A DNA stretch of 64,000 bases from Acidobacteriota bacterium (GTDB lineage: Bacteria > Acidobacteriota > Terriglobia > UBA7540): assembly GCA_004298155.1 (NCBI GenBank), contig SCRD01000016.1, forward strand, positions 124,001-188,000, read 5' to 3'. Of this stretch, positions 44,856-62,743 are shown piece after piece. The position numbers and the translations under genes were made by a program. Below the pieces are notes generated by a model. It saw only the letters and a list, made by a program, of their open reading frames with translations, was not told where the DNA came from and made no database searches. Positions within the stretch are counted from its first letter, which is position 1. The number at the start of each line of letters is the position of its first letter.

Positions 44856-45983
44856 TCAACGGCGAGGTTGGTAAGCACACCACGGGTCGGTGGCGAGGTA
44901 GTCGCCGGTCAACGCGTAAGCCCGCGACCGCGAGCCTCCACAGATGGAGCGGTATTCGCACTGGCGGCATCGGCCGTGCAGCGCCTCAGGGTCGCGCAAT
45001 TCGCGCATCAGCGGGGAGTTCCGGTAGATCTCAACGATACTTTGCACCCGCACGTTGCCGGCTGACTTCGGCAGGAAGCCGCTGGGATAAACTTCCCCCA
45101 GGTGCGAGACAAAGACAAATCCCTTGCCGGAATTCACTCCATGAGGTGCGAAGCCGATTGTGTGGCCGGGACCTTCGGACCGCCGCAGCATTTCCGGCAT
45201 GGGCACCATGCCGCGGGGGCCCGTGTGTCCCTGCGAGGGCTGCGCCGCCTCGACTTTGGCTTCACGCTGCGCCACATAGCGGCGGTAGTGCGGTGCTTCG
45301 GTCACTTTCAGAATGAATTTAGACCTCTTCTGCACCTCGTACAGGATGGCGAAAAGTTCCTCACAGCGTCTGGCCTCGATCCCGTCCAGCGCTTCCCCGC
45401 GCCCAACTGGAACCAGGAAGAACACCTCCCAAAAAACCGCTTGAAGGCGCTCAACCAGGTCGGCCATCTCGGAGAGATATGGGGCCGAGCCTGCCCAGAG
45501 CGTGGTATTGATCTGCAGCGGGAGGTTGTTCTGGTGTGCCCATTCCGCCGCTTGCAGCGTTTTGTCAAAGGCCCCTTTTACACAGCGGAAACCGTCGTGG
45601 AGATCGGCGTGCGGATAATCCAGGCTGAGCGCCAACTGGTTCAGCCCTGCCTGTTTCAGGTCTCGTACCAGGTCCTGCGTCAGCATGGGAGTTGCGGCCG
45701 GCACCGTGCCCATGCGCAAGCCCAGCCGCTTGCCTTCACGTATCAGGTCCAGCAAGTCGGGGCGTTTGGCAGGATCGCCGCCACTCAGGATAAAAACCGG
45801 CGTGCCCATTCCCGCGACGTCAGCCAGAAGCTTGGAGCCCTCCTCAGTGGTCAGTTCCTCGGGATGGCGCATGGGCTGCGCCGACGCGCGGCAGTGCATG
45901 CAGGCAAGGTCGCAGGCCTGTGTTGTCTCCCATATCACCAGGAAGGGCGCGTAAGCAAAATCGAAGGAGGTCTTCATAGTCAT
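44856..45983 (-). CDS. Radical SAM/SPASM protein (TIGR04053-like)
   Basis: The 375-residue enzyme has the radical SAM cluster motif CDLACMHC (Cys24, 28, 31), the SAM-binding FILSGGDPAKRPDL and a C-terminal SPASM-type cluster (CRQCEYRSICGGSRSRAYAL, then DPWC). The overall form, with LVIWETTQACDLAC, fits the TIGR04053 group, which is related to AhbC/NirJ heme-modifying enzymes. Substrate is not known. The start may be 45983 or the Met two codons later; neither has a ribosome site. It follows the qNOR gene on the same strand, 260 bases upstream of it, and may share its low-oxygen context. Confidence 0.9.
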   Translation of the reverse strand: MTMKTSFDFAYAPFLVIWETTQACDLACMHCRASAQPMRHPEELTTEEGSKLLADVAGMGTPVFILSGGDPAKRPDLLDLIREGKRLGLRMGTVPAATPMLTQDLVRDLKQAGLNQLALSLDYPHADLHDGFRCVKGAFDKTLQAAEWAHQNNLPLQINTTLWAGSAPYLSEMADLVERLQAVFWEVFFLVPVGRGEALDGIEARRCEELFAILYEVQKRSKFILKVTEAPHYRRYVAQREAKVEAAQPSQGHTGPRGMVPMPEMLRRSEGPGHTIGFAPHGVNSGKGFVFVSHLGEVYPSGFLPKSAGNVRVQSIVEIYRNSPLMRELRDPEALHGRCRQCEYRSICGGSRSRAYALTGDYLATDPWCAYQPRR

Positions 45984-47388: not shown

Positions 47389-50300
47389 TTGGGCGAGCAT
47401 TCCAGACGATTGACCGGCTGGGTCGGGTCGCGGCGGAAGTTTCTGGGTTACAGCGCGGCGTTTTCGTTGCTCCCTGCGCCGTTGCGCCTGCAGTTGCCGG
47501 CAGGACCTGCAGCGCTTCCAGGCATCGATGCTCCCGGCTTCTCAATTCCTCGCCTGCATCCGGAGTACCGCGCGCAGGGTCCGCTTGCCGATATCCTCAA
47601 GAAGGTTGACCCCGAAAACGACGATTTTCCCGTCGAGAAATTTGCGGCCAGAATTCAAGCAACGCTCCGGGGGTGGGCTGAATCGCTCGAGCAATCGATT
47701 CCGGCTGGACTCGATGTGATTGGGCAATCTGTGGCCGGCACCTTTGCGGGTTCGGCCCTGCGCCCGCAGGAAAGTCGCGTTCTTCGCAGCGATAAATTGC
47801 TCGAGATCAGGAGCCGGCGATTTCAAGCTTCCCGGACGCTAGACCGCAGCGCCTTCCTGGAATCCCTGAAGGGGACGCTGTCGGCCTATTCGGCGTTGCT
47901 CAAAATCCAGTTTAACGTTGCCGAAGTCCAAATCGCCGCTCATGAACCTCCAGCGCTTGAGGCCACCATTCGATACGAGTTCCTGGGAAAGTCGGCGGGA
48001 TGCTATCGAGAACAGCGCTCAGGCAATTGGAAGATTTCCTGGGACCAGACGCCGCAGGGAACTCTAAGCATCACGGGCTGGAGCGCAGAAACCGAAACTC
48101 AAGTGCGGGCCTCCGCTCCGGTGTTTCAGGAGATCACTTCGGAGGTGCTGGCGAACAATCCCTCCTATGCCGCGCAGTTGTTGCCGGGAGCTGATTATTG
48201 GAGGACTGTTCTTGACGCTGCGTGTGGAATCGATGTTTACGGCAACAACGGCATCACCGCTGGCGACATGGACAATGACGGTTTTGATGACCTCTACATC
48301 TGCCAGCCTTCCGGGCTGCCCAACCGGCTTTACCGCAACCGCGGTGACGGAACTTTCGCCGACATCACCGACGCGGCGGGAGTTGGAATTCTTGACGCCA
48401 CTCCCTGCGCGCTATTTGCGGATGTCCTGAACCGGGGCCGCCAGGATTTACTGGTGGTCACTGTCACCGAACCTCTCCTTTTCCTCAATCAGGGCGACGG
48501 CACATTTCAGTTGAAATCCGAAGCTTTTCGGTTCCGACAGCCGCCGAAGGGAACGTTTACGGGGGCCTCGTTCGGCGACTATGATCGCGATGGAAAGCTG
48601 GACCTGTATTTGTGCCTCTACAGCTACTACGAAGGCCTCGGCGAGTATCGCTATCCCGCACCCTACTATGACGCGCAAAACGGTCCGGGCAATTTCCTGT
48701 TCCACAACGAAGGAGACGGAACGTTTCGCGACGTCACCGCGACGACGGGAGTGGACCAGGGCAACAACCACTTCAGTTTTGATTGCCAATGGTGCGACTA
48801 TGACGGCGACGGATGGCAGGACCTCTACGTGGTCAACGATTTTGGCCGTAACAATCTTTACCACAACAACGGAGATGGGACCTTCACCGACGTGGCCACA
48901 AAAGCCGGCGTACTCGATATCGGCCCCGGCATGAGCGCCTGCTGGTTTGATTATGATAATGACGGCCGGCCGGACCTTTACGTCTCGAACATGTGGGAAG
49001 ACGCCGGGCGCCGGATCAGCAGCCAGCAGGACTTTATGCGCTCCCTCCCACAGGAGACCCGCGCCCTCTATCAGCGCTTTGCCGCGGGCAACTCTCTTTT
49101 TCACAACAGCGGAAACGGCAGCTTCGAAGACCGCAGCAAGACGGCAGGAGTGGAAATCTCCGGGTGGTCGTGGTCCTGCCAGGATTGGGATTTTGACCAC
49201 GATGGCTATCCCGATCTCTACATCGCCAACGGGTTCATTTCTGGACCCAACCGGCAGAATCTTGAGAGTTTTTTCTGGAGGCAGGTGATTGCCCGTTCCT
49301 CCCCAACAGGTGGCCGCCTGTCCGAATACGAACAGGGCTGGGACGCGATCAATGAATTGATCCGCTCCGATGGTACGTGGGCTGGCTACCAGAGAAACAC
49401 TTTCTACGCCAACAACCGCGATGGCACATTCGCCGAAGCCGCTGGGGCCGTTGGACTCGATTTTGTTGACGATAGCCGCGCGTTTGCTCTGGCGGATTTT
49501 GACCACGATGGGCGGTTGGAAGTTTTCCTGAAAAACCGGACCGGGCCGCAGCTTCGAATTCTCCGCAATGTTGCGGAGGGAATCGGAGAGGCAATGTCAT
49601 TCCGCCTGAGGGGAACGAGAAGCAACCGCGACGCAATAGGAACCTGCGTCATCGTGGAGGCTGGCGGTGTGCGGCAGATGAAACTTCTGCAGGCAGGGTC
49701 GGGCTTTTGTTCGCAGCACAGCAAAGAAATATTCGTTGGCCTCGGCCATTCCTCCGGTCCTGTGCGCGCCACGATTCGCTGGCCCAGCGGCCTGGTTTCC
49801 ACATTCGAAGACCTGCCTTCCAACCACCGGGTGGAAATCGTGGAAGGCTCAGCGAGTTTTCATGCTGAGCCATTCGCGAAGACCGCTCCCCATCCTTCTG
49901 TTGGGGGTGTAGCGCCCCGGCGAAGTGTTCCGCTTCCCACGGCGGTCGGCACATGGTTGATTGCACCTCTTGACGCACCGGACTTTTCCCTGCCTGACTT
50001 GGAGGGCAAGGCGCACGTTCTCTCCGGCCTCGCGGCGACTCCCGTGCTGCTGAATTTCTGGGCGACCCGGGCGGATGCTTCCGTCAAGTTCCTCTCCCAA
50101 CTCGAAAAGGAGTCGAGCCTTGCCCGGAAGGCTGGACTGCAAATCCTCGCGATCGCCGTCGAACCTCCGGGCAGCCAGGAAAAGGTTCAAGCGCTTACTC
50201 GCAGGCTTCGATTGTCATTTCCTGTCCTTGTAGGTTCGGATGAAGTGGCTTCTGTTTACAACCTGTTGTTCCGCTACTTGTTTGACCGTCACAAGGACCT

Positions 50301-51222
50301 TCCTGTTCCCGCGTCGTTTCTGGTGGGCAGAGAAAGCAGCATCGCCAAAGTGTACCAGGGGCCTGTGGAAGTTGCCCGGATCGTTAAGGACGCTGCACGA
50401 ATCCCGCGCAACGCTAAAGAGCGCCAGCAGCGCGCCCTGCCGTTTACGGGCCAGACCCACGGCGCATATTTGCGCAACTTCTTCACCTATGGCCTGGTGT
50501 TCGCGCAGCATGGGTATATCGAGGCGGCTGTGCCAGCTTTCAAACGGGCCATCAGCCAGGACCCTAACGCCGCGGATGCGTATTACGATCTGGGCACGCT
50601 TTACATGGAAAAGAAAAAATGGGACCTCGCGGAAGAAGTGCTCGAAAAGGCGGTCCAACTGAAACCGGACGACCCGATGGGCCTGAACAACCTGGGCATT
50701 GTGGCTGCGCAGCAAGGGAAGCTGATGATTGCTGAACAGTATTTCAAGCAGGTCTTGAAGCGAGACCCGTCTAATGATCTGGCCCTCGGCAATCTTGCTG
50801 ATCTTTTTCGAAGTCAGCAAAGGTTCCAGGATGCTCAGCAGTTGCTTGATGAAGCTTTGAAACGGCGCCCCGATGATCCCCAACTGAATTACAAGCTGGG
50901 AATGGTCTACGCGGGGCAGGGGCTCAACAGCCAGGCACAGACATACCTTGAGCGGGCAGTTCGTTTACAACCCGATAACGCGGAGGCGCTCGATAACCTG
51001 GGTGTTGTATATGCCCTGACCGGGCAGCTTGACCGCGCGGCTGAAACCTTTTCCCTGTGCATTCAGAAAGCGCCCCGGTTTGACCAACCTTATCTGAATC
51101 TCGCGCGAGTGGATGTCAAACTGGGCAGGCGCGAGGAAGCCGTTCAAGCGCTGAACGCATTGCTGGCGCAGATACCCGGCCATCCGTTGGCGCAAAAGTA
51201 TTTGCAGCAACTCCAGCAGTAG
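47389..51222 (+). CDS. CRTAC1-type propeller fused to redoxin-like and TPR domains
   Basis: TTG 47389, with GGGGAGAG upstream, starts a 1277-residue protein with a Tat signal (SRRKFLGYSAAFSLLPAPLR). Residues about 60-270 are an alpha/beta domain I do not recognise. FG-GAP repeats cover about 280-720 (GDMDNDGFDDLYI, GDYDRDGKLDLYLCLYSYY, CDYDGDGWQDLYVVND), then ASPIC/UnbV at about 740-810 (GTRSNRDAIGTCVIVEAGGV). A thioredoxin-fold segment at about 860-1000 (FSLPDLEGKAHVLSG, LLNFWATRADASVKFLSQL) lacks the CxxC Cys. Five to six TPRs follow to the end. It is divergent from the DUF2914 gene. Confidence 0.9.
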   Translation: MGEHSRRLTGWVGSRRKFLGYSAAFSLLPAPLRLQLPAGPAALPGIDAPGFSIPRLHPEYRAQGPLADILKKVDPENDDFPVEKFAARIQATLRGWAESLEQSIPAGLDVIGQSVAGTFAGSALRPQESRVLRSDKLLEIRSRRFQASRTLDRSAFLESLKGTLSAYSALLKIQFNVAEVQIAAHEPPALEATIRYEFLGKSAGCYREQRSGNWKISWDQTPQGTLSITGWSAETETQVRASAPVFQEITSEVLANNPSYAAQLLPGADYWRTVLDAACGIDVYGNNGITAGDMDNDGFDDLYICQPSGLPNRLYRNRGDGTFADITDAAGVGILDATPCALFADVLNRGRQDLLVVTVTEPLLFLNQGDGTFQLKSEAFRFRQPPKGTFTGASFGDYDRDGKLDLYLCLYSYYEGLGEYRYPAPYYDAQNGPGNFLFHNEGDGTFRDVTATTGVDQGNNHFSFDCQWCDYDGDGWQDLYVVNDFGRNNLYHNNGDGTFTDVATKAGVLDIGPGMSACWFDYDNDGRPDLYVSNMWEDAGRRISSQQDFMRSLPQETRALYQRFAAGNSLFHNSGNGSFEDRSKTAGVEISGWSWSCQDWDFDHDGYPDLYIANGFISGPNRQNLESFFWRQVIARSSPTGGRLSEYEQGWDAINELIRSDGTWAGYQRNTFYANNRDGTFAEAAGAVGLDFVDDSRAFALADFDHDGRLEVFLKNRTGPQLRILRNVAEGIGEAMSFRLRGTRSNRDAIGTCVIVEAGGVRQMKLLQAGSGFCSQHSKEIFVGLGHSSGPVRATIRWPSGLVSTFEDLPSNHRVEIVEGSASFHAEPFAKTAPHPSVGGVAPRRSVPLPTAVGTWLIAPLDAPDFSLPDLEGKAHVLSGLAATPVLLNFWATRADASVKFLSQLEKESSLARKAGLQILAIAVEPPGSQEKVQALTRRLRLSFPVLVGSDEVASVYNLLFRYLFDRHKDLPVPASFLVGRESSIAKVYQGPVEVARIVKDAARIPRNAKERQQRALPFTGQTHGAYLRNFFTYGLVFAQHGYIEAAVPAFKRAISQDPNAADAYYDLGTLYMEKKKWDLAEEVLEKAVQLKPDDPMGLNNLGIVAAQQGKLMIAEQYFKQVLKRDPSNDLALGNLADLFRSQQRFQDAQQLLDEALKRRPDDPQLNYKLGMVYAGQGLNSQAQTYLERAVRLQPDNAEALDNLGVVYALTGQLDRAAETFSLCIQKAPRFDQPYLNLARVDVKLGRREEAVQALNALLAQIPGHPLAQKYLQQLQQ

Positions 51223-51287
51223 CAAGTGATAGGCGTCGTCCACCTTGTTTGTTTGTGCCCCTTCTGGGAAAATGGCATCAGGGATTG

Positions 51288-52526
51288 ATGAAGTGGGGTG
51301 TCCCTGCAATGTCTGCCTTAAAATGCTCCTGGATAAACGAACTGTACTGTTTCTGGCCCGCCCGGTTGAGGATCTGGCAAGGCGCCCTGGTATTGTGGTT
51401 TGCGCTTTCAATCGGACTTCTGGCCCAGACACCCGGCGGCTTCATTGCAGGTACTGTGAGGACTATAGCCGGGGCAAGCATTCCGCACGCAGAGATTATT
51501 GCGAGGTCGTCAGGGGGCCAAGTTGTCGCTTCCGTCCAGACCGATGATCGTGGGGATTTTCAGTTTCCACCGCTCCAGCCAGGTACTTACAGGCTGGATG
51601 TCGAGTTCACTGGGCAATGGAAGGCCTCATCCAGATCAGTGGAAATTAAGGATGGGGAACATGGCGTAGTGGATTTCACTGGTATTCCAGCGCATGACTC
51701 GACGCAGGGTCAGGGCGACTTGCTTGGCCCCATTACCCTCTACAATGACTCCGGCTTCAAGCAAGCGCAACTGACTGATCCCTCAGGCGGCGGCGGGTAC
51801 AGCAATGCGGCTTCTGCTCAGGCCGTCAAAATCCTCAATCTGTATCTTGCGTCTCCGACCCCGTCAGCCGCTGCGGGCGGATCACATGAAGCGGAACTAG
51901 AGCGGTCGGGGAACGCATTCTTGAAAGCCCAAAAATATGCGCAGGCCGCAAGTGTATTCGAGAAGGGCACGGTGCTTTACCCGCTTTCGGAGCGCTTGCA
52001 GATGGGGCTTGGGCTCGCGCTATTCGGAGCTGGAAAATATCCGGCAGCCGCTGGCGCTTTGCATGAAGCCGCCCGCCTTGCGCCCAATGATTCCGGCCCG
52101 GTCGTGATGCTTGCTGAGACTTTGCAGTTTGCGGATGACCCGGCAGCCGCCGGCCTGCTGAAACGCTTTTCGGAGCTCCGTCCGGAGAACGCCAGAGGCC
52201 GCTATGCGTATGGCCTCTCCTTTTGGAAGGATTTCCGCATGCACCACGCTCCGGACTCGCTCGCTAGCGCCAGGGCGCAATTCGAGAAGGCTGTAGCGTT
52301 GGATCCTAATGATGCAGACGCCCGCGTGCAGCTGGGCATGATTTACGATGAGCAAAAACGCCTGAACCGTGCGGTCAGTGAATACCAGGCAGCCATCCAG
52401 GTTAACCCCAAGCTGACGACGGCCCATTACCGATTAGCGCAAGATTTTGAGCGCCTCGGAGAAAAAGAGAAAGCCACGGCGGAATTTGAGCAGTACAAAC
52501 ATCTACGTGGACACACGTCCCCTTGA
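51288..52526 (+). CDS. Carboxypeptidase-regulatory-like domain plus TPR protein
   Basis: ATG 51288 is chosen over TTG 51249 and ATG 51309; AGGG lies upstream. A hydrophobic leader (ALVLWFALSIGLLAQTPGG) is followed by a carboxypeptidase-regulatory Ig-like domain (GFIAGTVRTIAGASIPHAEI to about residue 110), a Gly/Ser-rich linker and about five TPRs (KYAQAASVFEKGTVLYPLSE, ASARAQFEKAVALDPNDADA). The 412-residue protein probably sits in the periplasm or on the surface and accompanies the CRTAC1 fusion just upstream. Its Ig-like domain is the same type that heads the Oar-like receptors in the window. Confidence 0.87.
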   Translation: MKWGVPAMSALKCSWINELYCFWPARLRIWQGALVLWFALSIGLLAQTPGGFIAGTVRTIAGASIPHAEIIARSSGGQVVASVQTDDRGDFQFPPLQPGTYRLDVEFTGQWKASSRSVEIKDGEHGVVDFTGIPAHDSTQGQGDLLGPITLYNDSGFKQAQLTDPSGGGGYSNAASAQAVKILNLYLASPTPSAAAGGSHEAELERSGNAFLKAQKYAQAASVFEKGTVLYPLSERLQMGLGLALFGAGKYPAAAGALHEAARLAPNDSGPVVMLAETLQFADDPAAAGLLKRFSELRPENARGRYAYGLSFWKDFRMHHAPDSLASARAQFEKAVALDPNDADARVQLGMIYDEQKRLNRAVSEYQAAIQVNPKLTTAHYRLAQDFERLGEKEKATAEFEQYKHLRGHTSP

Positions 52527-52588
52527 TAAACATCATTGGCCAGACGTGTTTGATTACCCCGTCTGAGATGAGAAGAGCGTTTTACCGG

Positions 52589-53953
52589 CTAGGTGGCGTC
52601 GCCGTAATCAGCCCCGTTCAGGAAATCGATCGAATCCAGATTATTATCAACGCCCTCGATCACGTAGTTGTCATGCGCGGGATTCAATGCTGACGGCTGC
52701 GCTGCTTCATGCTGAGGAAGCATCCTGTCGGCGGATGCCACGATTCCCATCTGGTTCAACAAACCGTTCATGTCAATGGCGGTGTCGGATTCGGTGTCGC
52801 GCGGCAGTACGGGAGAAATGGCCACGGCTTCGTTGTGATTTTCAAACCAGGCCAGAAATGAGGATTGACTGGCGCCTGAAAGCCTTTGCTGGTCAATCCA
52901 GGTGAGGAAAGCCCCCATATCTGCATCGATCAGTGACCCTGTTGGATCAGGTTCTGGATTAGAGTCTTTTCCAGAAAGAAGTTCGTTCATCGGTCGTTGC
53001 CGCTGGCGGGGAGCAAAACGCGCCACCAGGGTGAGCGGGTGAGCGCGCCGATATACTTCACGCGCCGTCCATTGCACGAAGGTCGTGCTGAAAATCTGGG
53101 TGCCCTGCCCTTGGGTGAAAATGCTGGTTTCAAGGTGGCCCAGTATTTCGTCTTCGGGTTTCCCGCTCAGGCCGACCTGTTCCGGCCGGAGTTTAAAAAG
53201 CATACTGGTCAGGGCTTCCGGCCCGCCGATGCCTCCATTGATCGCTTTGGTGATCTTTTGCAGGATCGCCTTCCGAACCGGCTCCAGCGCGCTGTAAGAA
53301 ACCGAGACGAGAGCGCTGTCGGCAAGAGTTTCTGCCGGGCCGCCATCGATATACCAATGACCAAAGGGAACCGGATGGGCCTTTGCGCGGGCTGCGGCCG
53401 CCTCGAGCACGATGCGAAGACCGTTTGCAGGGTCCACCCGCGTGAAGCGTGTGCCATAGGGCCGAAGTTTGCGGAACAGAGGGTACGAACTCTCCTTCAC
53501 GTCCTTTCCAACTACGATAATCCCAAGCCTGGGCGTTGGCAGTTGCTCAGGCGGCATCGAAGCATCGACTTTTTCCATGAGCTTCTCGGCAGCGCCACGG
53601 AAGCTGTCAATTTGATGCGTGGCCCAGAGGTAGGCGGAGAGTTGCTGGGAGAAAGTCCCGGGTGCATCCACCCAATTAAACTGCTCAAGCTGGCGCGAGA
53701 GCTTCAACTGTTGAAATTCCGACAACAGGCTGCTCATTTCAGGCCCGGAGCGTGAAGAAAGATAGGAAAGCTGGTGGTCGATTTCCCGGCGTTCAGCCGG
53801 AAACTTCCAGTCATACTGTTCAAGCTGCTGGAGGATGAGCGGAGCAAAAGCCAAGGGAAGTTGCCGGAACAGGCCGATGTGGTTGATTGCCACCTGCCTT
53901 GCCTGTGGCGGGTAGCCATTGAATTGCTCGGCTTTGATCTCAGCAGGCAGCAT
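52589..53953 (-). CDS. Unrecognised protein whose C-terminal tail mimics an Oar-like receptor plug motif
   Basis: ATG 53953 starts this 454-residue protein; the frame to 54250 would overlap the Tat phosphatase-fold gene in another frame. No signal peptide or membrane helix is visible. I do not recognise the main body, which is helical at first (QARQVAINHIGLFRQLPLAF), then alpha/beta (RLGIIVVGKDVKESSYPLF). The last 28 residues contain NYVIEGVDNNLDSIDFLNG, against NYLLDGIDNNSDNVDFLNG in the plug of the receptor encoded at 56931-60701. It ends a minus-strand run headed by that receptor, starting 5 bases after the preceding stop. Confidence 0.8.
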   Translation of the reverse strand: MLPAEIKAEQFNGYPPQARQVAINHIGLFRQLPLAFAPLILQQLEQYDWKFPAERREIDHQLSYLSSRSGPEMSSLLSEFQQLKLSRQLEQFNWVDAPGTFSQQLSAYLWATHQIDSFRGAAEKLMEKVDASMPPEQLPTPRLGIIVVGKDVKESSYPLFRKLRPYGTRFTRVDPANGLRIVLEAAAARAKAHPVPFGHWYIDGGPAETLADSALVSVSYSALEPVRKAILQKITKAINGGIGGPEALTSMLFKLRPEQVGLSGKPEDEILGHLETSIFTQGQGTQIFSTTFVQWTAREVYRRAHPLTLVARFAPRQRQRPMNELLSGKDSNPEPDPTGSLIDADMGAFLTWIDQQRLSGASQSSFLAWFENHNEAVAISPVLPRDTESDTAIDMNGLLNQMGIVASADRMLPQHEAAQPSALNPAHDNYVIEGVDNNLDSIDFLNGADYGDAT

Positions 53954-53958
53954 GTATT

Positions 53959-55146
53959 CTAAGAAACCTCCGCCAAAGGTTTGCCCGTTCCCATGGTAGA
54001 AGAAAAGCCTAAAATTGAGCCCAGCGTGGGGACGAGATCCAGAGGTTCCACTGCCCGGTCCACCACGATGTTCTGGCGTATCCCGGGGCCGAGGGCCATG
54101 ATCCAGGTCGTACGCGACAGTGCATCGCCGGTGCGATGGTGCTGGAAACCGTTTCCGCCGGCATCTAGGTCGGAATCGCGGCCGAAATCCGGCAGAATGA
54201 ACATCGTTGTCTTGCCCGCATATTCCGGCTGGCTCTGAATTTCGCGCCATATCTCGGCACAGAGGCGGTCCGTGCGTTGGATTCCTTCGATGTACAGGGA
54301 ATAGGAGCCTGAGTGGGCAACGTCCATATCGTGCAGGGTAATCCAGAGGAGGCTGGGAGCGTACCGCCGCATCAACTGACGGGCGATGTACACGGAAAGC
54401 TCATCCGGGCTTGAAAGCGTCAGGGCGTGCGCCACAAAATCCGAAACGGAAAGCTTGAGCAGGCTTGAAAACTGGTGGAGATTGACGTTGTCCCCCTCTA
54501 CCTCGGGCGTGAGAAGAGGCGTTTCATAATTGTCCACCAGGAGATGTTCGTACCGGGCGTCACTGGTCGAAGAGAGAGCTTGTTTCAGCAGTCTCTTTGG
54601 GAGTATGACGTTGGCAGAATAGTCCGGCCCGAAAGATCGAGCGTTGCTGCCGCCAATCCGATTGAAGCCATTGGCCGGAGCCACCACCCAGGCGTCATGG
54701 AGCGGACGCTTCAAGTCCTTGCGGAAATACTCGAAGACCGTCGGGTTATCCGGCGGGACCGCCGCAAAGTTATCAAAGGTTTCGTAAACGCCTGTCGCGA
54801 GACTTGCCGTGGCGACGTAGTGCCCCAGAATGCCGCGGTTGATGACTCTCGTGAAAAACGTGGACTGGGGAATGAGTTCCTTAAGAAGGTGCGGGATGTT
54901 TTCCTGGCCTTCGGGCATAAAGGTTTCTTCATCCCGGCAGCCGCCGCCAAAAGTTACCACCACGGCTTTCTGTTTGGACCGTTGGGGAGACGCGAAGGCG
55001 TGGCTTGATGACAGTCCGAACAGCGTTGCCGCCGCCGTCGCCCCCGTCATAACCCTCAGGAAATCCCGCCGGTTGCAGGAGACGGCTTCGGTAACGCCGA
55101 GCGGACTCAAGTGTTTCACCTTCGGCAACAGGGATGATCGCGCCAT
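53959..55146 (-). CDS. Tat-exported alkaline phosphatase-fold protein (DUF1501/sulfatase-like)
   Basis: The 395-residue protein has a twin-arginine signal at about 27-52 (CNRRDFLRVMTGATAAATLF, SSSHAFAS). The remainder follows the alkaline phosphatase superfamily order: KAVVVTFGGGCRDEETFMPE, GVYETFDNF, LLWITLHDMDVAHSGSYSLY, TTMFILPDFGRDSDL and a C-terminal DLVPTLGSILGF. The usual metal ligands are partly altered (FGGGCRD in place of D-G), so activity is uncertain. The ATG directly follows the TAA of a 42-residue frame, and the stop is 5 bases before the next gene. Confidence 0.83.
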   Translation of the reverse strand: MARSSLLPKVKHLSPLGVTEAVSCNRRDFLRVMTGATAAATLFGLSSSHAFASPQRSKQKAVVVTFGGGCRDEETFMPEGQENIPHLLKELIPQSTFFTRVINRGILGHYVATASLATGVYETFDNFAAVPPDNPTVFEYFRKDLKRPLHDAWVVAPANGFNRIGGSNARSFGPDYSANVILPKRLLKQALSSTSDARYEHLLVDNYETPLLTPEVEGDNVNLHQFSSLLKLSVSDFVAHALTLSSPDELSVYIARQLMRRYAPSLLWITLHDMDVAHSGSYSLYIEGIQRTDRLCAEIWREIQSQPEYAGKTTMFILPDFGRDSDLDAGGNGFQHHRTGDALSRTTWIMALGPGIRQNIVVDRAVEPLDLVPTLGSILGFSSTMGTGKPLAEVS

Positions 55147-55275
55147 TTACTCACACCTTTTCAAAGTAACAATCTGTTTGCCAGGACGCTTTTCCTGCCA
55201 CTTGCCCTGCGAAAAAACCAGCCACTGGACCGTGTCGGCGCATCGGGCATGGTCTCTTTCAGAAGCAGGCGCCAT
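55147..55275 (-). CDS. Small 42-residue frame, possible ASPIC/UnbV-like remnant
   Basis: This frame runs from ATG 55275 to TAA 55147-55149, and the TAA is immediately followed by the ATG of the next gene. It contains DTVQWLVFSQGKWQEKRPGK followed by QIVTL, which resembles the last strands of UnbV domains (such as VEIRWPSGQTQKISGL). An in-frame stop directly upstream of the start excludes a longer product. It may be a relic of a lost CRTAC1 gene or a real small protein coupled to the phosphatase-fold gene. Confidence 0.45.
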   Translation of the reverse strand: MAPASERDHARCADTVQWLVFSQGKWQEKRPGKQIVTLKRCE

Positions 55276-55334
55276 CTTTCAACCTGCGCATCGCCCTTCG
55301 CGCTGTTCGCAGCCGGGTTTCGGTCCCGAGTTGC

Positions 55335-56771
55335 TCAAGGTCTACGCCCAGCGCGCTGAATACTGTTTTCTCCGCCTTCCATCGATAACACGAACTGGCG
55401 AATCTGTTCACGCTCGCGATCATCTTCAGCCAAATGGCGATTGTACAACTTCTGATGGGCTGCAAACTCCTTTTCCGCCAGATCTTTCTTGCCCAGACGG
55501 ACGTACGCCTGGCCCAGGCTGTAGTATGCATTAGTAAGGCCTGGGTCAAGCTGGAGAGCCTGTTGGAATTCGGGAACTGCCTCGGCATACCGGTGCCCCT
55601 GATAATAGAAGTTGCCGAGTTCAAGATGCGCATCTGCAAAAGAAGGGTCAAGTCGCACAGCTTTCTTAAGCAACTCTTCGACCTGGCCATGGCCGGCGCC
55701 CGAGCGCTTCATTTCGTTGCCTTTCCACAGACTCACCGCGCAGTAATAGACTGCCTGTGGATCGTTTGGGCGGAGGCTTTCAAGCCGCCGAAACCTGGCA
55801 ATCACCTCGGGGGTTTCGCCCGGAGCTCGTCTGTAGGCTTTGCTGAGAAAATAATAGGGGTGAGGATCCGCCGGAGCAAGATCAGTGGCGCGCATCAGGG
55901 CCTTCACGGCAGATTTGAATTCACCGCTCCAGTAATAGGACATTCCCAGCCCGACTGCGAGAGCCGAGGAATTCGGATAACGGCGCGCTCCCTGCGAGAA
56001 AACCTCGACGGCAGCATTCCAGGTATGGTGGAGCAGAAACTCAGCTCCCCAATCGAAGAAATTCGATTCGCTTGGGTCCATTTGAGTGGCGCGCTCATAT
56101 TCCTTGGCCGAGGCCACGTAGTTGCCGCTCTTCTCCTGAACGTCCCCCAGCAGGTTGTGTAAATCGGCTGTTTCTTGTCTCCGGATCAGGTCCTGGAGCT
56201 GGCGCCGCGCCGCATCGAATTGTCCTGTCTTTTCCCAGGCGAGCGCCAGATCGTATCCGTTTCCATAAGCATCGGGCCGCGCTCGCTGTGCCTTTTCCAG
56301 GTAAGGGACTGCGGCGGCGATTTTGCCCGCATGGGCATAGAACTCTCCAAACTCGTGATTGGCCTCGTAATCCGCCGGCGAGACCTCAATCGCCTTCTTA
56401 AACTGCGCCTCGGCTTGGTCCCTTTCTCCCAGCCGCGAAAGGTTCACTGCCAGGTTGGCCCGGGCGGCGGAGGAATTCGGCTTCAAGAAGACAGCCTTTT
56501 CAAAGTGCCCACGGGCCTCCGCGTCTTTAGATTCGGCAGCATAAGCAAGGCCGAGCAGTTCGTGAACTTCAAAGTTTGAAGGAAGCTGATCTACCAGGCT
56601 TTCCAACTCGTTCACTGCCTGCGGATATTGACCGGAGTTATAGTATTTGACAGCCGCCTGGAACTTGCCATCCAGGGTTTCATGGGTACTCGCAACCAGA
56701 TGGGCCGCCAACCGAGGCATGCAGCACGCCAAAACCAAAAAGGTGGCCGGAAGCCAGCGAGCTTTTGCCAT
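55335..56771 (-). CDS. Exported TPR-repeat protein
   Basis: The 478 residues have a hydrophobic leader (LPATFLVLACCMPRLAAHLV) and about 10 TPR units (YPQAVNELESLVDQLPSNFE, DAEARGHFEKAVFLKPNSSA, RYAEAVPEFQQALQLDPGLT). The Cys pair in the leader could also be a lipobox (VLACC). It lies 159 bases after the Oar-like receptor gene on the same strand and probably belongs to its operon. Confidence 0.86.
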   Translation of the reverse strand: MAKARWLPATFLVLACCMPRLAAHLVASTHETLDGKFQAAVKYYNSGQYPQAVNELESLVDQLPSNFEVHELLGLAYAAESKDAEARGHFEKAVFLKPNSSAARANLAVNLSRLGERDQAEAQFKKAIEVSPADYEANHEFGEFYAHAGKIAAAVPYLEKAQRARPDAYGNGYDLALAWEKTGQFDAARRQLQDLIRRQETADLHNLLGDVQEKSGNYVASAKEYERATQMDPSESNFFDWGAEFLLHHTWNAAVEVFSQGARRYPNSSALAVGLGMSYYWSGEFKSAVKALMRATDLAPADPHPYYFLSKAYRRAPGETPEVIARFRRLESLRPNDPQAVYYCAVSLWKGNEMKRSGAGHGQVEELLKKAVRLDPSFADAHLELGNFYYQGHRYAEAVPEFQQALQLDPGLTNAYYSLGQAYVRLGKKDLAEKEFAAHQKLYNRHLAEDDREREQIRQFVLSMEGGENSIQRAGRRP

Positions 56772-56930
56772 GGGTAGTTATTTTAGCACCGGGTGGGGCA
56801 GGCGGTAACTGGGGGGTGCTGCTTCCTGCTGGCGCGATGGCTACCTGCTGTCCCGGGCCCTTCCGTGCCGCGTCGGCCGGGCAGATTCAATGGCAGGGGC
56901 ACACAGATGTGCGCCCCTGCCAGACATGGA

Positions 56931-59900
56931 TTAGAAAGAGAACTTGAGAGCAAACTGGATCTGACGCGGATCGTTGAAGGGGAAACGCGTCGATCCAATC
57001 CTGCCGAAGTTCTTGTTGGTGAAGTCTGTTGATCCAGGTATTGAGACTACTCCATTGCCGCCAAATCCTGGAGCATTAAACGTTGGATGGTTCAGGATGT
57101 TGAAGAATTCACTCCGGAACTGGAGGTTGTATCGTTCGGAGATTCGGAAATTCTTGAAAAGAGAGAAGTCAAACGTAAGAAGACCGGGGCCGGAAACCTG
57201 TCCTCTTCCTCCTCCCAATAGGGCCAGGCCCGTTAAGCCGGGAATGCATCCAGCGGGGGTTGAAGTTCCAGGCTTGCAGGGTTGAGTAAAAGCCGCTGCA
57301 TTGTAGAAATTATCGGGAGCGCCCGGGCCGTGCCGGTCCTGCCCAGGAACGATCATAGCGACGCAACTGGTGCCGGATGTTGTCCCGATGGGACAACCGA
57401 TGTTTTGCGCCTGGCCGGTTTCCGCCGTGTTAATCCACTGCATGCTCCAGCCGCTGATGATCTGGTTCATGGCTCCTGTGCTGTTCGCGAGGAAGTGTTT
57501 GCCTTGCCCAAATGGGAGCTCATAGCCCCCACTAAAGTGGAAAACATGCCTGATGTCAAAGTTGCAGTCTGTGTAATCGCCCTGTATCCCAAAACCAGGG
57601 ACGGCAGGTGCGCGATAGCCAACGGCGCCTCCGTTAAGCAAATCCGACGCGTCGCTGCGGCATCTTGCGTAAGTGTAGGCCGCCAGGAATGTCAAGCCGC
57701 TGGAGAACCGCTGTTGGAGGCTTGTCTGAAGGGCATTGTAACTACTGTTGCCCTGGGTCGTGTGATAGCTTTGGCCCTGTCCGAAATCCGGAAATGGAAT
57801 GTAAAGTCCGACTCCTGGCGAGGATACCGCATGGGTATTAATTCCTGGCGGCAGGATCTCTGAAGGCCGATTGGACCCAACTCCTACCTGCAGGTGCCTC
57901 ACCTGATTGCCCACATAGCCTGCTGTCAGGGTCATGTTGGAAGTAAATGCATATTGGAGCACCAGGTTGTATCCCATTGTATAGGGTGTCTGGAAGTTGG
58001 TTTGCAGGCCCTGGAGTCCGAGTCCCTCAGCTTGCACTCGCGCAGGATCGATGGGTGTGCAGTCGAACCCTGATTCGAACATGAAGGCGTTCTGGCAAGG
58101 CGACCCGGCAAGGGTAGGAAAGGTTGTTGATGAAATCGGGTTTCCGCCGTTGGGTGCTCCGAAACCGAAACTGAACTGGAAGGGATAGTTCTCGCCGATA
58201 TTCGGTCCATAACCCTGGTTCTCAAACGAGTTATAGAATATGCCGAAACCACCCCGTGCCACCAGTTTTTGAGTTGCCTGGTATGCAAAGCCGACCCGAG
58301 GAGCGAAGTTGGTTTTTTGGACGTCAATTAACCCTGGATTGTTGCTCGAGACGATCTTGATACCGTCCTGGGCCGTCAAGGCCAGGAAGCTCGGGGAGAG
58401 GCCGTTGTTCCGGTTGGCAGGAATCAGGAATTCAGCCGCACCTGGAGCCGCCGGGACAAAATTCGCCTGGGCGCCAAAGTGCTCAAAGATCGGGCCAAAG
58501 TAATCCCACCGCAGCCCGAGGTTAAAGGTCAGCTTGGGGTCGAACTTCCAGTCATCCTCGATGTAAGCGCCCCAATACTTCTTCCCGTCGTCGGTGAAGC
58601 CGATGTTGGAAGCCGTGTAGTTGTTGGTGCCGCCTACATTGGGAATCGCTCCGGTAACGCCAGGGCAGCCACTGGGTGTTCCTCCCGGAGTCGGCCCCGG
58701 GCAGGGCAGAAGCAGAAACTGGGCCATGCCAGTGTTGCCGCCTGTCCCTTCCGGTACGCCCGTGTAGGTTCCGTTGTAATCGAACGTGCCGTGCGACCTG
58801 TTCGGCTGAAGCGTCGAGAATTTGATGTGCTGATATTCAACGCCGGTCTTGAAGGTATGGTTACCATAAATCTTGGTCAAATTGTCCGTCACCTGGGTTG
58901 TCTGGCTGATCTCATCCGAAGGCAGGAACCCATTGCTGCCAAGCGTACTCAGGCCGCTGAAGGTGAACTGCGGCAGGCCGCCGTTCTCGGCCACTTGAGG
59001 GATTGAACTGGAGATTCCGTACTGCGCTGGAATACCCATGGTGTTGGCGACAGGCCCGAAGCGCGTGGCATGGAGGCGGCTTTCTCCCACACGTGCTTCA
59101 TTGATCAGGGTCGGAGAGAAGATATGGGTGTAGCTGTAAGCTGCCAGGATTGAAAGTGCGTTCTGGTCGCCCTGCTGGAACGCTCCACCGTCGGCAATGC
59201 CCGCAAACGGGCTCGGAATGAACTGCGGGTCCTTTACGTAGCTGAAGGTCGCAAACATCTGGTCCTTTTCGCTCATATCGTAGTCAACCCGAGTGTCAAA
59301 GGCGTTGCGATTTTCCTTGAGTACCGGGTTGGATGCATAGTTCTGAAATAGCGATGATGCACTGGGATTCGGATAAAGGTTCAAGAGTTTGATGGCGTTC
59401 TGGTCAAGCCGGCCTGCAGGTAACTGGTTCAACATGCAGGACGTGCTAGTGGCGCACGCGCCGGTGAAATCTGTAATGCCAGCAATGCTGCCCCCCGTAT
59501 AAAACGGGTCACGCACATAGCCGCTGGATGTCGCTGCCAAACCTGTCACCGGGTCAACCGTCCCCTTGGTTACGGGGCGTGTCGAGGCGGGATCGAAAAC
59601 TGTTCCAAAGGGAAAAGACCGGCCCAGTGCGTCACTCTCCACTTTGCTGCCCGCCTGCTGGGTGATGAGTTCTGATAAGTTTGTATACCCGCTGCCTCGC
59701 ATCAGGCTGGTCGGAACGGATGATGTAAACACGCTCCCCTGGCGCCTGCGCAGGGCCTCATAGTCACCGAAGACAAACAGTTTGTTTTTCCTGATCGGCC
59801 CGCCGGCGGTGAACCCGAACTGGTTCTGGCGGAATTTGCCCTTCTTGAGGTTTCCGGAGTCCTCAAAGAAATCTGCCGCGTCAAATTTGTCATTACGGAG

Positions 59901-60701
59901 AAATTCCCAGGCGTTGCCATGGAACTGGTTCGAACCTGACTTGATGGTTGCGTTCAGGATGGCGCCGCCCGCCCGGCCGTACTCCGCACTGTAATTGGAG
60001 GTCTGAACCTTGAATTCTGCAATCGCGTCCACCGGGGGAAGCGCGTTGAAATTTGTGCCGTTCAGGAAATCTACATTGTCTGAGTTGTTGTCAATCCCGT
60101 CGAGAAGATAGTTGTTTTGTGCCGGCCGCATTCCGTTGGCCGAAAACGCCCCGTTAGCGGCGTTGCCGCGTGTATCAGCCTGCGGAGTATTCACACCAGC
60201 CACCAGTTGGGCCAAAAACGTGAAATTGCGTCCGTTAAGGGGCAGGTTATTGACGCTTCTTCCTGTGACCACATCCCCCAGGGACGCGTTCTGCGTCTGT
60301 AGTGCGGGAGGCTCCGTCGTCACTGTAATGGTTTGCGTAACCGCGCCGGGACGAAGCGTCAGGTTCACAACGAGATGCTGATCGATGTTAAGCGTGAGGT
60401 GCGACTGGATCGCCCTGGCAAACCCTGGAGCCTCCACGCTGACACTGTAGGCGCCGATCTTGACAGGCGTGAAGGTGTAATTGCCCTCGCCAGTCGTGGT
60501 GGTTGATATTGTGAAACCAGTCCCCTCGTTGATCAGGCTGACTTTGGCATTCGGAACCACTGCCCCAGACTCGTCTTTCACGGTTCCCAGAATGCTGCCG
60601 GTGTCAACCTGCGCGCGAAGGCCTGGTACGAAAACTGCTAGCGCGAGAACGCTGGCTAACACTAGATGCCATGTGCGAATGAGCGAATATCCCTTGCGCA
60701 T
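56931..60701 (-). CDS. Oar-like TonB-dependent receptor with carboxypeptidase-regulatory domain
   Basis: ATG 60701 has AAGGAG seven bases upstream; the longer frame is rejected. The 1256 residues begin with a signal peptide (HLVLASVLALAVFVPGLRAQ), then a carboxypeptidase-regulatory domain (GSILGTVKDESGAVVPNAKV), a plug with ALQTQNASLGDVVTGRSVNN, NYLLDGIDNNSDNVDFLNG and EFKVQTSNYSAEYGRAGGAI, and a barrel of about 950 residues ending IQFALKFSF. The myxobacterial homolog Oar is needed for secretion of the protease PopC, so export as well as import is possible. It heads a minus-strand run of TPR, phosphatase-fold and tail-mimic genes. Confidence 0.94.
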   Translation of the reverse strand: MRKGYSLIRTWHLVLASVLALAVFVPGLRAQVDTGSILGTVKDESGAVVPNAKVSLINEGTGFTISTTTTGEGNYTFTPVKIGAYSVSVEAPGFARAIQSHLTLNIDQHLVVNLTLRPGAVTQTITVTTEPPALQTQNASLGDVVTGRSVNNLPLNGRNFTFLAQLVAGVNTPQADTRGNAANGAFSANGMRPAQNNYLLDGIDNNSDNVDFLNGTNFNALPPVDAIAEFKVQTSNYSAEYGRAGGAILNATIKSGSNQFHGNAWEFLRNDKFDAADFFEDSGNLKKGKFRQNQFGFTAGGPIRKNKLFVFGDYEALRRRQGSVFTSSVPTSLMRGSGYTNLSELITQQAGSKVESDALGRSFPFGTVFDPASTRPVTKGTVDPVTGLAATSSGYVRDPFYTGGSIAGITDFTGACATSTSCMLNQLPAGRLDQNAIKLLNLYPNPSASSLFQNYASNPVLKENRNAFDTRVDYDMSEKDQMFATFSYVKDPQFIPSPFAGIADGGAFQQGDQNALSILAAYSYTHIFSPTLINEARVGESRLHATRFGPVANTMGIPAQYGISSSIPQVAENGGLPQFTFSGLSTLGSNGFLPSDEISQTTQVTDNLTKIYGNHTFKTGVEYQHIKFSTLQPNRSHGTFDYNGTYTGVPEGTGGNTGMAQFLLLPCPGPTPGGTPSGCPGVTGAIPNVGGTNNYTASNIGFTDDGKKYWGAYIEDDWKFDPKLTFNLGLRWDYFGPIFEHFGAQANFVPAAPGAAEFLIPANRNNGLSPSFLALTAQDGIKIVSSNNPGLIDVQKTNFAPRVGFAYQATQKLVARGGFGIFYNSFENQGYGPNIGENYPFQFSFGFGAPNGGNPISSTTFPTLAGSPCQNAFMFESGFDCTPIDPARVQAEGLGLQGLQTNFQTPYTMGYNLVLQYAFTSNMTLTAGYVGNQVRHLQVGVGSNRPSEILPPGINTHAVSSPGVGLYIPFPDFGQGQSYHTTQGNSSYNALQTSLQQRFSSGLTFLAAYTYARCRSDASDLLNGGAVGYRAPAVPGFGIQGDYTDCNFDIRHVFHFSGGYELPFGQGKHFLANSTGAMNQIISGWSMQWINTAETGQAQNIGCPIGTTSGTSCVAMIVPGQDRHGPGAPDNFYNAAAFTQPCKPGTSTPAGCIPGLTGLALLGGGRGQVSGPGLLTFDFSLFKNFRISERYNLQFRSEFFNILNHPTFNAPGFGGNGVVSIPGSTDFTNKNFGRIGSTRFPFNDPRQIQFALKFSF

Positions 60702-60975: not shown

Positions 60976-61621
60976 GCGAAAACTAATATTATTCAGTTAA
61001 GGACCGTGCTGAAAATACACTACGTTGACCACTTCTTGCAGATTAGATCCTGGACTGGGTCCTCAAAAGTGCACAGCGCCTGCTCGATGGAAATTGCCTG
61101 GCCCCGCTATGGGAGCGCTGGAAATATCGCATGAGACCGGGTGGCATTCTACGCAAACGCTGGTCCGGCTAAGGGGCCTCGTCATCCGCCTGCTGCTGTA
61201 AGCTGAGGCGTGCCCCCACGGCCAAATTTCGTGGCCTGGAAAATGACAGCGCTTGCCGTGCGTGGCGGATTGCGTCTACTACTACTACACCTGGGCGAGG
61301 AGGTTTCGCTAAGAGCTACCCTGCCTTGCACGGCTCGGTCCCAGCTCCGGCCGGAGCAAACGTAATGATGAACACGGCTGGATATCCCCTCGGATGCGTT
61401 TGGTCCGTGTCTTGCCAGTAAACAAGAGGCTCATTTTCGTGCCGGACCTTAGAAATTATTCCCGAGCCACAAAACTCCTGTTGTATCCAGACTCGGGTCC
61501 CTCAGGTCGAGCGGATGCCAGAGAGAGGCTGCTCCACACCTGCTCCTCGGGGCCAACTTCGTGTTTTTGAATTGTATTGCCACAATTTCGGTGTTACGTT
61601 GATGGCCAGCGGTGGGTATCA
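60976..61621. other. Intergenic region between receptor and DUF362 genes
   Basis: About 650 bases between divergent genes. I found no convincing frame, hairpin terminator or repeat. Short frames on both strands lack protein-like composition. Confidence 0.55.
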
Positions 61622-62743
61622 ATGCGATTTAACCGGCGCGATTGTTTAAAGGCGATGGGGTCTGGACTGGCGGCCGCCAGCATGAAATCGGTGCCCATGG
61701 CTGCGCATTCGGTGTCGAAAACCGATTCCAGCAAGCTCCGAATGCCGGGGTTTTATCCGGGCCGAGTGGTTTCCGTGGAGAACCCTGCAGTTCTGATGTC
61801 AAGTCAGTACCAGGCAGGAGCGGTACAACACATCATGCGGCGCGGCATGGTGGAATTGACGGGCACAGACTCCTGGACCGATGCCTGGCGGCTTTTCTTT
61901 GAGCCTGGGGATGTTGTCGGAATCAAGCTCAACCCGGTGGGCCAGCCGCTGGTGAAGTCGGACGCGACTGTGGTCCGAGAGATCATCGCAGGCCTCAATG
62001 CTGCAGGTGTGCAGAATAAGGACATTGTTGTTTACGACCGTTACCGGGATCAGTTCTTCGAAGCAGGATACGACAAGTGGCTGCCCGAGGGCGTTCGCAC
62101 ATCCTACGCGGCCGACCACTTCGAGCCCATCCAGCTTGGGATGGACGGCTATGACCCGGACCATTACCTGGACATGGCATTGACTCTGCCGGGCTACGAC
62201 ATCGACGACGTCAGAGCGCGGCGATCTTTCGCGGCGCGCTTCATCACGCGCCAGGTGAATAAACTGGTCAATGTTCCCGTACTCAAGGACCACCAGTCGG
62301 CAGGAGTCACACTTGCTCTTAAGAACCTCTCCCATGGCCTGGTAAACAACGTCAGCCGCAGCCATTCCTCCTCCACCCTGAATGCCTGCAACACCTTTAT
62401 TCCGGCGGTTGTATCATTGCCTGTTATCCGGAACAAGGCCGTCCTTCACATTCTGGATGGCGTCAAAGGCTTATATGACGGCGGACCTGGTGCACGGCCG
62501 CAGTTCGTATGGGAGCATCGCACGATCTATTTCGCCACAGACCCCGTGGCGCTCGACCATATAGGCTGGGAGGTGATCGACGCCAAGAGGGCCTCGGTGG
62601 GGATGAAAAAGATCTTTGAATCAACGCCCGACAAATTCAGTACCTTCGGACATCGGCAGCCCGAACACGTCGAGATCGCAGGCGCTCTCGGGTTGGGTGT
62701 TTGGGACCGCGCGAAAATCGATTTACGGCAGTTGAAGGTGTAA
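61622..62743 (+). CDS. Tat-exported DUF362 protein
   Basis: ATG 61622 (MRFNRRDCLKAMG) puts the twin-arginine motif NRRDCLK at the N-terminus; the frame from 61577 would add 15 residues. The 373 residues show the DUF362 pattern VGIKLNPVGQPLVKSDATVV, KLVNVPVLKDHQSAGVTLAL followed by KNLSHGL, and TDPVALDHIGWEVID. No Fe-S cluster Cys motif is present, although some relatives carry ferredoxin domains. Substrate and reaction are unknown. It is convergent with the radical SAM gene at the window end. Confidence 0.87.
   Translation: MRFNRRDCLKAMGSGLAAASMKSVPMAAHSVSKTDSSKLRMPGFYPGRVVSVENPAVLMSSQYQAGAVQHIMRRGMVELTGTDSWTDAWRLFFEPGDVVGIKLNPVGQPLVKSDATVVREIIAGLNAAGVQNKDIVVYDRYRDQFFEAGYDKWLPEGVRTSYAADHFEPIQLGMDGYDPDHYLDMALTLPGYDIDDVRARRSFAARFITRQVNKLVNVPVLKDHQSAGVTLALKNLSHGLVNNVSRSHSSSTLNACNTFIPAVVSLPVIRNKAVLHILDGVKGLYDGGPGARPQFVWEHRTIYFATDPVALDHIGWEVIDAKRASVGMKKIFESTPDKFSTFGHRQPEHVEIAGALGLGVWDRAKIDLRQLKV

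Follow-up and report, generated by a model that had tools for sequence, protein, structure and literature searches.

A receptor-plug-like tail on a phosphatase-fold protein in an acidobacterial Oar-like receptor gene run

Excerpts of published accounts describe four systems with which the locus reported here can be compared. The N-terminus of colicin B has been modelled to take the place of the removed half-plug of FepA (PMC8546555), and the C-terminus of FusB partly mimics the TonB box (PMC13253070). In Myxococcus xanthus the protein PopC, which lacks a signal peptide, is associated with Oar, a receptor bearing a CarboxypepD_reg extension (PMC6434023), and the partners of PaoABC are exported in one complex by the twin-arginine translocation (Tat) system, a hitchhiker mechanism (PMC4273604). 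Our subject is a protein of 454 amino acids (aa), encoded on the minus strand at 52589-53953 of a 64,000-nucleotide stretch of an Acidobacteriota genome (contig SCRD01000016.1, positions 124,001 to 188,000; hereafter the window). It ends in a tail that resembles the plug of an Oar-like TonB-dependent receptor from the same gene run, and a protein with a Tat signal, here called its Tat partner, is encoded alongside it.

As far as those excerpts go, the likeness to colicin B and FepA lies in a non-receptor protein bearing a copy of a receptor plug element (PMC8546555). Colicin B is an incoming bacteriocin and its copied element is the TonB box near the N-terminus, whereas the window protein belongs to the cell's own gene run and carries a mid-plug element at its C-terminus. 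FusB also uses a C-terminal segment to stand in for a receptor segment (PMC13253070), but it is a TonB homolog and mimics the TonB box, not the plug core. With Oar/PopC the locus shares a receptor extended by CarboxypepD_reg and a protein that seems to lack a signal peptide. The likeness to Tat hitchhikers such as PaoABC is the Tat partner encoded alongside; for the window protein we only infer co-export. Mimicry of plug elements is already known from colicin B and FusB, and by comparison with them a self-encoded plug-like tail would be a new variation, present in four genomes. Among the papers listed by searches of open-licence full text, none was seen from its title or abstract opening to report such a tail in a self-encoded protein.

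The tail and the receptor plug

The 454-aa protein terminates in ...HDNYVIEGVDNNLDSIDFLNGADYGDAT*, and the matching segment of the receptor reads ...RPAQNNYLLDGIDNNSDNVDFLNGTNF..., within its PF07715 Plug match (residues 156-245). The preliminary description of the window had proposed, by eye, that the tail copies a plug motif of this receptor with 12 of 19 residues identical. That observation and its ranges hold: both 19-mers, at 52613-52669 in the tail and 60057-60113 in the receptor gene, lie inside them, and 12/19 residues agree. The ungapped match is wider than those 19 residues, running from a Pro-Ala ahead of the motif to an aromatic position behind it (Tyr in the tail, Phe in the plug), with 14 of 27 residues identical. 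The protein stops four residues past the plug-aligned segment. Its parts and the receptor segment are as follows.

52592-52672, minus strand: plug-like C-terminal motif, residues 428-454, holding the 19-mer at 52613-52669 (evidence from the plug profile and from dN/dS, below)
52604-52684, minus strand: plug-aligned stretch of the tail, residues 424-450 (ungapped alignment to the receptor plug)
52673-52747, minus strand: fast-drifting linker, residues 403-427, largely predicted to be disordered
52748-53953, minus strand: protein core, residues 1-402, a helical N-terminal part and an alkaline-phosphatase-superfamily-like fold, common to tailless homologs
60048-60128, minus strand: receptor plug segment, residues 192-218, aligning ungapped with tail residues 424-450

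The copied piece is limited. The protein holds only about 27 plug columns, not the whole plug domain (a model of 107 columns), and it has no match to an outer-membrane barrel family that would make it a TonB-dependent receptor. Nor is the tail a copy of the TonB box: the TonB box is placed further N-terminal than the middle of the plug, and receptor residues 192-218 lie in mid-Plug match. We take the matching plug segment to be one strand and the loop that follows it.

The tail is carried by the window genome (G000, a soil-type acidobacterium) and by three others, G001, G020 and G023. We built a hidden Markov model (HMM) from 44 distinct plug segments, leaving out the loci of the three tail-bearing relatives and not using the window, and ran it on full proteins at Z=5000. 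It found the proteins of the window genome (E 6.8e-10), G001 (4.8e-7), G023 (8.3e-6) and, weakly, G020 (0.025), and none of 83 tailless homologs at E<=50. Among 10,000 shuffled tails, a single one (E 0.013) scored better than the weakest real tail, that of G020.

Searches of whole genomes agree. Against the window genome at E<=1e-3, the tail 19-mer matches only itself and the linked plug (E 3.2e-4). A 64-aa plug query has 42 matches there at E<=1, among which the tail ranks eighth (E 7.6e-8). Thirty of the other 41 were compared by BLAST with the window receptor and all 30 are its relatives (E 5e-21 or better), down to the shortest frames of 335 and 619 aa, in which the motif pattern is absent; the 11 that were not so compared lie in frames of at least 1039 aa. 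With the G023 tail as query, the four genomes yield 13 places at E<=1: the four tails, its own included, and nine frames of at least 619 aa, eight of which are also matched by the window tail.

We also scanned 2,319,338 19-mers from 193 fetched sources, a self-overlapping set fetched around the family of the 454-aa protein. The four tails reach 12, 12, 10 and 9 identities to the linked plug, and every 19-mer with at least 9 lies in a receptor-like frame (at least 220 residues after it), in one of three short end-cut frames or in one of the four tails. Of 96 distinct frames matching the plug at E<=0.1, 86 continue for at least 200 residues beyond the motif. Six of the remaining ten are copies of the four tails, and four are end-cut frames, three of them receptor fragments and the fourth a weak match. 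No plug piece was found in any other non-receptor protein among the 28,991 open frames of these sources, which are biased to family loci.

The resemblance of the tail to the plug is real and not a product of chance. Common descent of the 27-residue segment with receptor plugs, which the plug profile and the genome-wide plug query both bear out, is well supported as the best reading of the match, so far as sequence comparison can tell, and we call the tail plug-derived in that sense. The tails themselves carry traces of such an origin. Those of G000 and G001 differ at 8 of 27 places, and at seven of these one of the pair has the residue of the linked plug (G000 at four, G001 at three); for G020 and G023 the figure is 8 of 15 differing places. 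Since the differing sites point back to plug residues, both tails of a pair read as drifting from a plug-like start. An independent gain of plug matches in each lineage is possible, and would be costlier.

The alternative is convergence, in which a short acidic amphipathic peptide came to resemble a plug by chance or by selection and shares no descent with it. We consider this improbable. The match is one of 27 columns only, the peptide is acidic in character, and the G020 tail by itself is not significant, but a chance resemblance would hardly extend ungapped in the window protein from the Pro-Ala to the aromatic residue, give three of four proteins a plug-profile match at E<1e-5, or leave differences between G000 and G001 that point to plug residues.

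Distribution, age and selection

The 454-aa protein belongs to a family that mostly lacks the tail. With residues 1-404 as query (E<=1e-20), relatives are found in 117 of 399 genomes of the window's class, and nearly all members seen terminate at about residue 402. The full protein finds 19 of 297 genomes in the phylum, namely the window genome and 18 others of its class, and 9 of 39 in the window's taxonomic family, where eight genomes with a close homolog divide into four tailed and four tailless (G007, G012, G025, G029). The fetched neighbourhoods supplied 90 copies with alignments longer than 200 residues, including a few same-place duplicates (for example L070 and L142). Besides the window protein, three have the tail (those of G001, G020 and G023) and 87 do not. 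Of the 87, L077 is truncated at residue 265 and L148 at residue 359, four extend 16-26 residues past the end of the alignment (L079, L106 and, in L112 and L113, a second, distant copy each), and the remaining 81 stop within 6 residues of it.

Trees of 29 rows each were made from 87 core sequences and from 83 Tat partner sequences, with all of the family's full-length close homologs in and the split G029 out. The four tailed genomes form one clade in both (core 100/97, Tat partner 99/97), and tailless G007 is sister to that clade in both. A clade of tailed genomes with a tailless sister indicates a single gain of the tail, which on these sequence trees would have taken place in the ancestor of the clade. 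Multiple gains, or loss from a tailed ancestor, are not favoured: one change is enough on both trees, and the three forward frames of up to 600 bases that follow 86 homologs, three tailed ones among them, show no plug remnant at E<=1.

Two tailless relatives differ from the window in other ways. In G007, an ASPIC-type frame starts ten bases past the homolog's stop on the same strand (L074, 13199-13209), where the window has a convergent gene instead; the arrival of the tail may have been accompanied by a rearrangement on the 3' side. In G029, frame changes split both the homolog and its Tat partner (L077), so the pair seems broken or misassembled there.

The tail is not new. It shares only 50 of 81 nucleotides and 10 of 27 third codon positions with the linked plug, and for that reason a recent copy of the linked receptor gene was rejected as its source. 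The preliminary description had held that homologs without the tail, or a tail confined to one genome and nearly identical in nucleotides to the receptor gene, would point to a recombination accident. The first of these is what we see, in 87 of 90 copies; the second is contradicted by the four carriers and by the low nucleotide identity. The donor may not have been the linked receptor's own type, as the G000 and G001 tails are slightly closer to another plug type (15/27) than to the linked plug (14 and 13/27); the G023 tail is not.

Selection separates the motif from the linker before it. Between G000 and G001, the ratio of nonsynonymous to synonymous divergence (dN/dS) rises from 0.075 in the core to 0.68 in the linker (residues 403-427) and drops to 0.18 in the motif (residues 428-454), the last an estimate from a single genome pair and 27 codons. 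By rounded counts, nonsynonymous change is rarer in the motif (7/63) than in the linker (20/56; p 0.002), and it falls below synonymous change in the motif (p 0.003) and not in the linker (p 0.42). The motif is under purifying selection while the linker drifts, and the tail is not a decaying relic. A functionless relic of recombination would explain why the tail is confined to one clade and why most homologs manage without it, but such a relic should not show the contrast in dN/dS, nor should its reading frame stay open in four genomes whose proteins have diverged to 87, 62 and 61% identity with the window protein. We regard this explanation as very unlikely.

What has been kept overlaps with what plugs keep. 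Numbering the 27 alignment columns from 0, D12, N14, D19 and N22 occur in all four tails and in 25 of 25 distinct plug segments, and D16 and L21, also present in all four tails, occur in 8 and 20 of the 25. The D.N.D pattern could conceivably form a metal-binding loop.

The phosphatase-fold pair and its gene run

The 454-aa protein has no Pfam or NCBIfam match at E<=0.1, and no signal peptide was seen in it by eye. A sequence search of solved structures returned nothing for it (E<=1) or for the receptor (E<=0.01). AlphaFold models the core with confidence (block means 81-98 up to residue 400), and the model matches alkaline-phosphatase-superfamily structures from about residue 137 (span about 137-420). 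VIA-align lists 50 entries, with Z 12.1-13.8 across 188-238 residues and a root-mean-square deviation of 3.6-8.1: sulfatases, phosphatases, phosphodiesterases and YejM-type domains, which we take to be one superfamily. Foldseek alone is weak for this protein, with a best E of 6e-3. On its predicted structure, the protein belongs to the alkaline phosphatase superfamily fold. No subtilisin-like protease domain was found in it: Pfam and NCBIfam are blank, and the fold is of the alkaline phosphatase type instead. In the family consensus, and in the tailed protein itself, the acidic and histidine positions usual in the superfamily seem, by eye, to be replaced.

The other genes of the run are the following.

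53959-55146, minus strand: Tat partner, a protein with a Tat signal (PF10518 match below cut-off) and an alkaline-phosphatase-superfamily fold
55335-56771, minus strand: tetratricopeptide repeat (TPR) protein
56931-60701, minus strand: Oar-like TonB-dependent receptor with CarboxypepD_reg, Plug and OMP_b-brl_4

The Tat partner accompanies the family closely. It is found near 86 of 90 homolog copies, and the twin arginine is present in 71 of 71 aligned partners; as in Tat hitchhiker systems, a partner with a twin-arginine signal is encoded alongside a protein that lacks one. Its model matches the same superfamily in Foldseek (best E 1.2e-10). Several of the superfamily's Asp and His residues are kept, Asp273, His278 and His337 in 71 of 71 aligned rows and Asp320 in 69, and an invariant His109 (71/71) seems, by eye, to stand at the place of the sulfatase nucleophile. 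For the partner, the sequence search of solved structures returned nothing better than marginal matches (E 0.74 or worse, residues 4-71). Apart from the weak Tat-signal match, neither phosphatase-fold protein matches a Pfam or NCBIfam family, and comparison of their profiles is weak (probability 10.7), though both models match one superfamily.

Because the signal-less protein adjoins a Tat-signal partner, co-export of the two, as in PaoABC, is suggested as an inference. The fold and the partners of PaoABC are presumably unrelated to the window pair.

A run of an Oar-like receptor, a TPR protein, a Tat-signal phosphatase-fold protein and a signal-less phosphatase-fold protein is conserved and widespread in the class. 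A relative of the TPR protein lies within 9 kb of 57 of 90 copies; in G001 it is absent between the receptor and the partner. The run (47389-60701 in the window, and loci L063-L150) often comes with a divergent FG-GAP/ASPIC/TPR gene, and an ASPIC-like gene lies near 48 of 90 copies, run counts that include paralogs. The convergent gene of the window, at 51249-52526, encodes a CarboxypepD_reg domain like those at receptor N-termini, joined to TPR repeats. Two radical SAM-like genes, assigned by eye, and a DUF362 gene flank the region (44856-45983, 61577-62743 and 62903-64000). Beyond the tail, the plug query has 41 matches in the window genome at E<=1, one of them to the linked receptor, so Oar-type receptors are plentiful in this genome; the plug of a second receptor, on contig C6, is 81% identical to that of the window receptor.

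What the tail may do

A plug-derived segment kept by selection at the end of a protein suggests, as far as sequences can, a docking or gating role. We tentatively propose the following, as a possibility that falls short of being probable. In the ancestor of the tailed clade, a fragment of a TonB-receptor plug would have been fused once to the C-terminal end of a protein whose fold is of the alkaline phosphatase type, and a loose linker would have carried it since then as a short linear motif. The signal-less protein would be taken across the inner membrane in a complex with its Tat-signal partner. Once in the periplasm, the co-exported pair would be docked by the tail to whatever the plug segment usually contacts, with the receptor barrel or its substrate the first candidates.

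Several observations count against this proposal. The fourth carrier, G020, has a tail that is not significant alone, and most members of the family exist without one. Of the plug-invariant residues (25/25), N4 has been lost from all four tails, N13 from three and G10 from two, which rules the tail out as a complete structural substitute for the plug strand. A plug strand is expected to be beta; AlphaFold predicts the tail to be disordered, with confidence (predicted local distance difference test, pLDDT) below 50 at residues 414-427 and 433-454 and weak helices at 429-434 and 438-447. The tail does not covary with the linked plug, and a receptor of the linked class stands in the same run in only two of the four carriers (G000 and G001). 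Co-export and the periplasmic location of the 454-aa protein, finally, are presumed.

Alternatively the tail, still plug-derived, may have been repurposed as a docking peptide for another target, such as the Tat partner, the core of the 454-aa protein itself or some protein of the cytoplasm. This is possible, if doubtful. All four tails keep D.N.D..D[FY]LN and lose parts of the LDG strand motif of the plug, G020 and G023 retain the tail without the linked receptor arrangement, and no signal peptide was seen by eye. But the residues kept in the tails (D12, N14, D19 and N22) are those kept in plugs as well, which hints at a property common to both.

The preliminary description had read the tail as a mark for export through the linked receptor, or as a peptide that displaces the plug and opens the gate. 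Parts of that interpretation stand: common descent with the plug, the C-terminal place of the tail in each of the four carriers, and selection on it. Covariation of the tail with the plug of a linked receptor, which it had proposed to look for, is not supported: G000 and G001 have one and the same plug sequence across the 27 residues, and their tails differ at eight. The receptor is linked in these two genomes, and, in the excerpted accounts, there are precedents in the Myxococcus Oar receptor and its protein without a signal peptide (PMC6434023) and in the modelling of colicin B in place of the FepA half-plug (PMC8546555). But in half of the carriers the tail persists although no receptor is linked in this way: G020 has its nearest receptor-like frame (37% identity) 3.9 kb upstream, beyond an intervening frame of 882 aa, and in G023 the receptor is 6.0 kb off on the opposite strand. 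Receptor-like genes also lie within 9 kb of 69 of 90 homolog copies, those of tailless homologs in many genomes among them (counts that include low-identity paralogs and cut contigs), and export through the receptor leaves the inner-membrane step unexplained. We think a cargo or gate mark for the linked receptor an unlikely reading of these sequences.

A bolder reading is that the tail acts as a self-encoded plug in trans, entering the receptor barrel once TonB pulls the receptor's own plug out, and so recruiting or passing the phosphatase-fold pair. The chances of this seem slim; if true, it would turn the Oar-like receptor into a regulated gate or an exporter.

On how signal-less proteins might make use of TonB-dependent receptors, Oar/PopC is the sole studied case found in the open-licence literature searched. 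In this family, a piece of a receptor plug seems to have been transferred to another protein in the course of evolution and retained there. The system offers a peptide of 27 residues, a tailless sister protein that can serve as a natural control, and four residues (D, N, D, N) as targets for mutation.
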